From positions 1 through 35,299 of the IMG/VR virus record IMGVR_UViG_3300042471_000175: a stretch of 35,299 nt of DNA; one strand, given 5' to 3'. The number at the start of each line of letters is the position of its first letter. Position 1 is the first letter of the stretch. Below the pieces are notes generated by a model. The model saw only the letters and a list, made by a program, of their open reading frames with translations. It searched no databases and was not told where the DNA came from. The DNA is from a virus. This document shows positions 1,804 through 35,299 of the stretch, piece after piece. The translations under genes and the position numbers were made by a program.

Positions 1804-1812
1804 TGTAAATAC

Positions 1813-1923
1813 AAAAAGCCCCTTACAAGCTGCGGTAGTAGCGGATCAACAGAATCAACTGTCTTTCCTCGCAGCCCGTAAAGGGCGATAAATTTCTTTT
1901 CAATTCAGGCTACTACCTCTGAA
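1813..1923 (-). ncRNA. Structured leader RNA with a 17-bp helix, U-tract and loop-loop complementarity
   Basis: Read on the minus strand from the predicted start near 1923, a 5' hairpin forms first (TTCAG/CTGAA stem, loop AGGTAGTAGC). Then GCCCTTTACGGGCTGCG (1886-1870) pairs with CGCAGCTTGTAAGGGGC (1834-1818): 17 consecutive pairs, three of them G-U, enclosing 35 nt. TTTTT follows directly (1817-1813). The first hairpin's loop GGTAGTAGC is the exact complement of GCTACTACC at 1833-1841, which lies in the loop and first base of the large hairpin. Kissing loops, a pseudoknot or mutually exclusive folds are all possible. The helix ends 15 nt before the ATG of the replication gene. It matches no riboswitch class I recognise. 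An attenuator is the simplest reading. Confidence 0.62.
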
Positions 1924-1929
1924 CGCTTA

Positions 1930-1937
1930 CAAAGATA
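1930..1937 (-). promoter_or_regulatory. TAnnTTTG promoter (TATCTTTG) for the replication gene
   Basis: The minus strand reads TATCTTTG, a perfect match to the Bacteroidota -7 element, in the intergenic space between the lipoprotein gene (ends 1943) and the replication gene (starts 1803). I see no convincing -33 TTTG. Transcription would begin near 1923 and give a leader of about 120 nt. Confidence 0.65.
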
Positions 1938-1942
1938 AAAAA

Positions 1943-2188
1943 TTAATAGCAACTAACCGTAGTTTTTACAGTAACATCTTTGCCATTCTGCTTGACTGTG
2001 GTTGTGCCTTCCATCCCTCGCTTAAATGCCTTAACATCTCGCTTGGTCATATCGCACTTTTCGATTCTGGTCATCGATGATTGGCTTGTGCCGAATCCTG
2101 TGGTGGTGGTGTTAACTCGGCACTCGTAGCACTTGGTGCATCCTGATAGCGATGCCAGAAGGATGATGATAGATAGGGTTGTTTTCAT
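1943..2188 (-). CDS. Small phage-encoded lipoprotein
   Basis: The protein has 81 residues. MKTT is followed by a hydrophobic core (LSIIILLAS) and a lipobox LSGC with the acylated cysteine at 17, a textbook signal-peptidase II signal. The mature part has cysteines 17, 20, 23, one near position 45 and one near the C-terminus (SCY), and many Thr/Ser residues, as in small Bacteroidota lipoproteins. It would be exported and anchored in a membrane. It lies in the early/replication region, not next to the endolysin, so a superinfection-exclusion or host-surface role fits better than an outer-membrane spanin. That role is inference. It ends just before the promoter of the next gene and starts 11 nt after the methyltransferase stop. 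Confidence 0.85.
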   Translation of the reverse strand: MKTTLSIIILLASLSGCTKCYECRVNTTTTGFGTSQSSMTRIEKCDMTKRDVKAFKRGMEGTTTVKQNGKDVTVKTTVSCY

Positions 2189-7493: not shown

Positions 7494-8060
7494 TTAAATT
7501 TGGCGAGTCAACTTCTTGACAAGCAACCTAATTGATTCATCAAGCTTCTTAACGCTGTCGGCAATCATCTCCATTATTGCAGATCGCTCTGATTCCGTTG
7601 CCTCCTTATGCTCCATTAACATATCAACCAAGCCACCGATGGAAGTCAATGGCTGGCGAAGTTCGTGCGAGATCATAAAGCGAAATTCCTCAATAAGCAC
7701 CTTCTGCCTTTCGTGTTCGTGGGCAGTGATGCTGGTAACATCCACGCAAGGGATGCCGATGAAATGAAGAGAATCTAAGATGTAGTAAACATTCCACATA
7801 TTGTAACGCTCACTGCCGATCTTCTGCTTAGAACGAACATACACCCGTTGAGGATCAGGTGGTCTTGATTTGGATCTGTTAATTGTTGCTAAGAAGTCAT
7901 CCCTATCGCTGTCATTGGATGCAATGTCGAGGATGTTCTTAGGCTTAACGTGGCTGCTGTATTCTTTGAATAGATCATTACTCGTGAGTATTAACCCCTG
8001 AGAATCGGAGATTATGTAGAATAAATCTATTGAAGATTCAAGAATATGCAGAGATGCCAT
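7494..8060 (-). CDS. PAS plus histidine-phosphotransfer (HisKA/DHp) protein without a kinase ATPase domain
   Basis: The protein has 188 residues. Residues ~1-110 have the pattern of a PAS sensor domain (IDLFYIISDSQGLILTSND, LHFIGIPCVDVT). Residues ~115-185 form a HisKA/DHp helical hairpin with the H-box FRFMISHELRQPLTSIGGL. The phospho-accepting histidine is H132, followed by Glu and Arg as in typical HisKA domains. The protein ends there: none of the N, G1, F or G2 boxes of the HATPase domain is present, and none follows in any frame before the next gene. In cells such a protein could dimerise with, or take phosphate from, host sensor kinases. It lies in the lysis region, with a TAAATTTG element 4 nt before the ATG. 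Function is inferred. Confidence 0.83.
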   Translation of the reverse strand: MASLHILESSIDLFYIISDSQGLILTSNDLFKEYSSHVKPKNILDIASNDSDRDDFLATINRSKSRPPDPQRVYVRSKQKIGSERYNMWNVYYILDSLHFIGIPCVDVTSITAHEHERQKVLIEEFRFMISHELRQPLTSIGGLVDMLMEHKEATESERSAIMEMIADSVKKLDESIRLLVKKLTRQI

Positions 8061-34685: not shown

Positions 34686-35299
34686 TTATTGTGCATTGAA
34701 ATAATCAAACACTTTTGCAATATCTGATCCAGCTAAATCAAACCACTCACCTCTAATCCTTTTACTTGAAAACAAAGTATGTAACTCTTTTTCATCTTTA
34801 ACTCTTGCATCAAATTGATGAATTAACTCGATTGATGGCTTTTCTGATTGTAATGTTTTCTCACGATAAAGCGGATTGTTTGATCTGCCTATTTTATAAT
34901 ATCCAGTATTTTTATCAATCATAACATAAACTTTAGTAAATCCATAAGATAAAGATTCAGGGCTTTTACCTGATTTAACTTCTATCAAGTTTGTAATATG
35001 TGTTCTGGCATCTGAAGCAATTTGCTTCAAATTGCAATCTAAAACAAAGCCTAAAACTGTTGGCATAATTACATCCAATCTAAAATCATTTAATGGAATA
35101 AAACGAGTATCTGATACTTTGAAATAATATGTGTCATCATCTAAATGATAACGACAATTATAGTCATCGCATTTTTTTACATCGACTATCTGATAAATTC
35201 TATCTTTTTTAGGAAATAGCAACTTTATATCTGCTCTGTTTTTGTTAGACCAAGAAATAAGTTCTGCTTTTTTATCTTGCTTAAGTTTGTCTAAGTAGT
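34686..35299 (-). CDS. C-terminal part of GIY-YIG/T5orf172-like protein (gene crosses the window ends)
   Basis: The frame is open to the end of the window and continues at positions 212-128 in circular form (232 residues total). The C-terminal ~85 residues have the T5orf172/Mug113 pattern of the GIY-YIG superfamily: VYVMIDKNTGYYKIGRSNNP (the V-Y-V-M and Y-Y-K-I-G strands), a catalytic-type Arg and Glu in REKTLQSEKP, ELIHQFDARVKDEKELHTLF and GEWFDL. The preceding part is an unassigned domain (FKVSDTRFIPLNDFRLDVIM). Such proteins are common phage homing-like or DNA-binding/nicking proteins. The joined reading frame is the best evidence that the contig is circular. Confidence 0.88.
   Translation of the reverse strand, partial: YLDKLKQDKKAELISWSNKNRADIKLLFPKKDRIYQIVDVKKCDDYNCRYHLDDDTYYFKVSDTRFIPLNDFRLDVIMPTVLGFVLDCNLKQIASDARTHITNLIEVKSGKSPESLSYGFTKVYVMIDKNTGYYKIGRSNNPLYREKTLQSEKPSIELIHQFDARVKDEKELHTLFSSKRIRGEWFDLAGSDIAKVFDYFNAQ
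35173..35299. repeat. Terminal direct repeat, right copy
   Basis: Identical to 1-127. The base before the repeat (35172) continues directly into this copy, and the left copy continues at 128, so the two copies represent one locus. See the left copy. Confidence 0.93.

Follow-up and report, generated by a model that had tools for sequence, protein, structure and literature searches.

A leader RNA on the minus strand of a phage genome, headed by a promoter and leading into a putative replication operon, is a real, conserved and previously unlisted RNA family. On the combined evidence of sequence comparison and energy models, it is probably a cis-acting transcription attenuator that times transcription of this operon. 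Comparison with related sequences establishes the promoter element, the helices of two folds, the mutual exclusion of these folds, and the position at the operon head.

The window (the whole stretch of DNA analysed, 35,299 bp) covers positions 1-35,299 of the IMG/VR virus record IMGVR_UViG_3300042471_000175. Its two ends are direct repeats of 127 bp (1-127 and 35173-35299), and the record therefore reads as a circularly complete phage map. The leader occupies 1923-1813 on the minus strand and closes in a 17-bp helix, P2, followed by five U residues. Its features, and those of the two genes behind it, are as follows:

1930-1937, minus: −7 promoter element TATCTTTG, of the Bacteroidota type TAnnTTTG, 6 nt ahead of the first P1 base
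1904-1923, minus: P1, the 5′ hairpin, TTCAG (1923-1919) with CTGAA (1908-1904); terminator state; covaries
1918-1909, minus: P1 loop, AGGTAGTAGC
1909-1917, minus: 5′ strand of helix HA, GGTAGTAGC, in the P1 loop; pairs with 1842-1834
1870-1886, minus: 5′ arm of P2 (terminator), GCCCUUUACGGGCUGCG; pairs with 1834-1818
1874-1886, minus: P2a, hairpin GCCC-UUUAC-GGGC within the P2 5′ arm; antiterminator state, exclusive with P2
1866-1868, minus: 5′ strand of P2b, GGA; pairs with 1845-1843
1849-1862, minus: P3, hairpin ACAG UUGAUU CUGU; covarying, of variable length
1843-1845, minus: 3′ strand of P2b, UCC; partner of 1866-1868
1834-1842, minus: 3′ strand of HA, GCTACTACC; antiterminator helix with 1917-1909, or a kissing loop when P2 is present
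1818-1834, minus: 3′ arm of P2 (terminator), from folding and covariation
1813-1817, minus: terminator U-tract TTTTT, read from the letters; in aligned members, P2 is likewise followed by a U-rich stretch
991-1803, minus: first gene of the operon, DUF6291 protein, 270 aa (Pfam PF19808, E = 1.3e-12)
234-1169, minus: second operon gene, 311 aa, conserved behind DUF6291 in six phages

Much of this outline agrees with an initial annotation made from the letters alone. The small TTCAG/CTGAA hairpin is where it was described, and the long helix pairs without interruption ahead of TTTTT, with three of its 17 pairs being G-U. The replication gene was placed 15 nt past the helix, and the ATG of the DUF6291 gene (1803) does lie about that far from the end of P2 (1818), and 10 nt from the end of the U-tract. 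An exact 9-nt complement of the P1 loop had also been reported; it exists, one base higher than given (1834-1842 rather than 1833-1841). The 9-mer GGTAGTAGC occurs in the window only in the P1 loop and as this complement (1842-1834), compared with 0.08 expected from shuffles. The folding energy of the leader is −43.8 kcal/mol (z = −4.0), a value equalled by none of 200 shuffled sequences.

Members and distribution of the leader family

Relatives of the DUF6291 protein have the same RNA immediately upstream of their genes. A pattern scan of IMG/VR in which the loop was left free, together with later variants of the pattern, identified the leader in about 90 contigs; since members were recruited through conserved motifs, forms diverging further may have escaped, and a scan with the terminator part only was not relied on by itself. 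The free-loop scan did not demand the 3′ loop strand, and the complement was present in 73 of its 75 matches, the other two being chance matches in coding sequence. A covariance-model search, which the initial annotation had proposed, finds one leader per phage record, in the window and in 25 others; G019 (52 kb; L430-L432) has two, of different types. Because this record also has duplicated terminase and tape-measure segments, it probably consists of two phage genomes that were joined, or of segments arranged in tandem. Model matches on the opposite strand are a consequence of the near-palindromic sequence of P2. The carriers include two unrelated phage genome types: in three records (G002, G010, and G020), the terminase and most of the structural genes are not those of the remainder.

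There is no real BLAST match to the leader among named phages and plasmids. A strict pattern gave just five chance matches in the GTDB species genomes, all lacking the complementary strand, and model R1 found nothing significant in Flavobacterium phage 11b, a stretch of Riemerella phage GRNRAP2, or three Manatee Spring phages. The leader could not initially be matched to a known class, and this still holds: no Rfam family reaches threshold for the window or its relatives (two weak matches, with E > 3, are attributable to chance). The family is also absent from the open-access literature searched, which is weak evidence of novelty. The type of promoter, together with weak similarity to Flavobacterium phage 11b, points to Bacteroidota as the host phylum.

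Two other genes of the window deserve mention. Just upstream of the leader promoter is the 3′ end of a gene for a small putative lipoprotein (81 aa; 1943-2188, minus strand), a homologue of which is present in 11 of 22 phages. Farther away, the gene at 7494-8060 (minus strand) encodes a protein with a histidine-kinase phosphoacceptor domain (HisKA, PF00512, E = 2.5e-8), with no ATPase domain and, judging by eye, a possibly PAS-like N-terminus. Of 22 phage records, 19 contain a homologue, and these cover both unrelated genome types; that phages should conserve a truncated sensor kinase is odd.

Compensatory changes and the two competing folds

Compensatory changes, which the initial annotation had suggested looking for in the helices and the loop pairing, are found in both among the roughly 90 related leaders. 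For 56 distinct leaders, 97% of cells in the combined structure are paired, and both sides have changed in 269 cells, compared with 74 in shuffles; moving the partners by a single column lowers pairing to under 44%. Taken separately, the terminator fold (P1, P2, P2b, and P3) has 96% of its cells paired, with 182 double-change cells (48 when shuffled), and the antiterminator fold (HA, P2a, P2b, and P3) has 96.7%, with 169 (again 48 when shuffled). P1 is paired in 100% of cells, with changes from U-A to C-G and from C-G to U-A in divergent members (UUCAG/CUGAA, UUUAG/CUAAA, and CUUAG/CUAAG), and P2 covaries at 12 of its 17 pairs in a wider alignment. P2b is found as GGC/GCC, GGA/UCC, GGU/ACC, and GGG/CCC. 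HA has eight conserved pairs, which are Watson-Crick in 424 of 424 cells, with no G-U, and at five of the eight both sides have changed.

In P2, P2b, and P3, there are 137 G-U cells but only 14 A-C cells, an excess that indicates selection on the RNA transcribed from this (minus) strand. The same figures bear on the possibility that the conserved element is not an RNA at all, but a DNA palindrome serving as a replication origin or recombination site. It does neighbour replication genes and sit at mosaic junctions; however, a tolerance of G-U some ten times that of A-C on one strand, and a promoter element at a fixed distance, make a DNA-level role very improbable.

Two exclusive states had been postulated from the loop pairing and the long helix. 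The states themselves are borne out, but loop pairing alone is not sufficient to produce them: HA does not exclude P2, because the two overlap by just one base (1834), and they could coexist with HA as a kissing loop, as the initial annotation allowed. Judging by the alignment and the energy model, exclusivity stems instead from P2a in combination with HA as a nested long-range helix.

All 20 distinct P2 5′ arms fold on themselves to give P2a (mean −6.6 kcal/mol, matched by no more than 4% of shuffles), while the 3′ arms fold far less (average −2.6); P2a folding is also seen in three further divergent members, in one of them weakly. In 24 of 56 leaders, the G at alignment column 54 is mispaired within P2, and it is nevertheless kept as G; in P2a, it pairs with C48 in 50 of the 56 (52 if U-G is counted). 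The P2a pairs are nearly invariant, with changes on both sides at one pair only, in three sequences, and the loop is not conserved, varying freely.

Folding of the growing chain, with order and timing predicted from equilibrium energies that leave out pseudoknots, polymerase footprint, and kinetics, assigns the lowest energy in the nascent RNA to HA plus P2a in all 63 members. P2 is predicted to take over in 62 of these, when its 3′ arm is nearly complete, with a median of 15 nt emerged (in the remaining one, the contig is truncated ahead of the arm); if HA is forbidden, the predicted takeover shifts to a median of 6 nt. In the full-length leader, the terminator is calculated to be about 11 kcal/mol more stable than the antiterminator, so that the latter would have to win by timing or with help.

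The leader might instead serve, as a structured 5′ untranslated region, to make the mRNA more stable or to adjust how the first gene is translated, the U-run being incidental and termination irrelevant. Bacteroidota have no Shine-Dalgarno sequences, and tune translation through the structure of the mRNA close to the start codon (PMC6847099), where the end of P2 is found. Against this, a static structure needs neither a self-hairpin in the 5′ arm nor a long-range helix, and both the 17-bp helix and the U-rich stretch adjoining it are kept in divergent members. We therefore consider a purely structural role unlikely.

Position at the operon head and the loop-pairing sequences

The promoter noted upstream of the leader in the initial annotation is represented by TATCTTTG (1937-1930), and a −7 element is found 4-7 nt ahead of P1 in 77 of 77 leaders. 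In probable promoters of Flavobacterium johnsoniae, 4-5 nt separate this element from the start site (PMC6847099), so the leader RNA should begin at P1; the conserved element thus suggests that its first base is the transcription start. At the other end, 75 of 77 leaders have an ATG no more than 28 nt past the U that opens the tract. This gap can hardly, if at all, accommodate a promoter, and transcripts of the first gene should consequently have to pass the terminator. L145, L387, and the L378 type have an interrupted U-tract, and termination may be modest in these few members with weak tracts.

The short gap also argues against a stand-alone small RNA gene. Such a gene, of some 110 nt, would have a promoter and terminator to itself and a kissing loop beside P2, and its RNA would act in trans, with the replication genes transcribed only by leaky read-through. 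Conservation of promoter, compact fold, and terminator would suit such a gene, as would the ability of HA and P2 to coexist, and P1 covaries, as expected if it and the loop contact occur together. However, P2a and the conserved switch point would be left without a role, and no target in trans for the loop 8-mer (the eight conserved HA positions) was found in the same phages, where extra copies fall in ordinary coding sequence at no consistent site. Such a gene seems improbable.

The initial annotation had proposed an attenuator or an antisense-controlled switch. A structured, two-state leader with a terminator-like helix, at the head of a replication operon, is indeed what is found, but the antisense part fares badly. 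Antisense-RNA-controlled attenuation of the pIP501/pT181 plasmid type has the same logic of a terminator ahead of a replication gene, and the loops diversify as complementary pairs, as they would under such control. The complementary partner is encoded in cis, however, and a search of the opposite strand, over the leader and immediately downstream of it, shows TAnnTTTG in just 1 of 77 members; this mode of control is extremely unlikely here.

The first gene in relatives usually encodes DUF6291 or another putative replication protein, with a DnaB helicase commonly next, either directly or past an inserted gene. First-gene proteins other than DUF6291 have no Pfam match; their position suggests that they are replication organisers. 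The linkage between leader and replication gene holds in unrelated phage genomes and despite intervening genes (HNH, methyltransferase, and small ORFs), which are occasionally inserted between the two. In L087, L093, L104, L106, L123, and L136, HNH, homing-endonuclease-like, methyltransferase, and other genes are located exactly between the leader and the replication genes, and the ATG of an inserted first gene is always right behind the U-tract. The leader may be the head of an insertion-tolerant cassette.

Although the loop was left free in the scans, the central triplet of the HA 8-mer is always CAG, CGA, GGA, GAG, or AGU (5 of 64 possible). The same 8-mer types reappear on divergent backbones and beside different genes; L086 and L093, and similarly L083 and L124, differ by one base outside the loop pairing, yet have different 8-mer types on both strands. 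At least 22 triplet changes are required on a tree of the remaining RNA, which has about 100 columns and is poorly resolved. A recurring closed set is not expected from free compensatory drift, and raises the question of what else reads the 8-mer. It could be due to limits set within the RNA itself, by the conformation of the P1 loop for example, or to an outside partner. A more speculative suggestion, to which we give little credence, is that the 8-mer is an allele code, a fixed and interchangeable set matching something outside the leader (a factor of phage or host that is specific to the allele, or leaders belonging to co-infecting phages). If so, the switch would also define self/non-self groups in phage replication control. 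Among 22 phage records, no gene family convincingly tracks the 8-mer type, and there is no exclusion of equal types within a single metagenome sample (4 of 22 pairs are equal, 4.5 being expected).

Proposed mechanism and comparison with known systems

In the attenuator model that we prefer, the terminator helix and U-tract lie between promoter and first gene and, by sequence comparison and the energy model, are exclusive with a conserved antiterminator (HA plus P2a). Transcription would start at the first base of P1, and the emerging RNA would form first the P1 hairpin and then P2a. On emergence, the downstream loop strand would pair with the P1 loop to form HA, giving a branched antiterminator (HA, P2a, and P2b/P3) that sequesters the 5′ arm of the terminator. 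A polymerase passing while this structure holds would continue into the replication genes. Opening of HA or P2a, or a lingering polymerase, would let P2 zip up beside the U-tract, and transcription would stop 10 nt before the start codon. We infer a working terminator, an outcome that changes during infection, and a trigger of some kind, candidates for which are a protein of the phage or host, the speed of the polymerase, and the terminated leader itself as it accumulates; our searches found no regulator or ligand for the leader. Ribosome-mediated attenuation through a leader peptide was considered and rejected: there is no conserved frame, and an ATG is found within the first 60 nt in only 40 of 63 leaders, with none in that of the window.

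To our knowledge, little is known about the timing of gene expression in Bacteroidota phages, and a compact conserved attenuator heading a replication operon would be a directly testable control point. The family is also one in which compensatory evolution across two competing folds is unusually clear.

Several known systems have comparable properties. The plasmid replication genes repR of pIP501 and pAMbeta1 and repC of pT181 have antisense-controlled attenuators, in which exclusive terminator and antiterminator folds precede the rep gene and read-through sets the dose of the replication gene. The phage leader is like them in having exclusive folds before a replication gene, a likeness of arrangement rather than of compared sequences. 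Unlike them, it has no conserved antisense promoter, the deciding sequence being a long-range helix inside the leader, and it belongs to a phage and has a Bacteroidota-type promoter.

The put sites of phage HK022 are promoter-proximal RNA antiterminators that act on the polymerase over a distance, independently of factors, at distant terminators. Both they and the present leader are promoter-proximal phage RNA hairpins that could allow polymerase to pass terminators of an early operon, but the antiterminator modelled here would compete directly with one terminator. In lambda, antitermination depends on nut sites, with N binding the loop of boxB in conjunction with boxA, and tR1 controls the O and P replication genes; a terminator ahead of replication genes is common to lambda and the phage leader. 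The GCCC/GGGC stem of P2a resembles that of boxB, but its loop is unconserved and no N-like factor was identified. Assignment of the leader to the boxB/nut type was rejected because its loop varies freely.

Riboswitch expression platforms and T-box leaders are likewise two-state leaders with an intrinsic terminator beside the start codon. The phage leader differs in having no Rfam match and no evident conserved unpaired core for ligand binding, its most conserved bases being in helices. A type III toxin-antitoxin system, in which an antitoxin RNA of tandem repeats and a terminator precede a toxin gene, was also rejected, since the downstream genes encode DUF6291 or replication proteins, plus occasional inserts, and each phage has a single RNA unit. 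Attenuators are an already known kind of control; as far as our searches reach, what is new here is the architecture, the setting in phage replication, and the closed set of pairing sequences.
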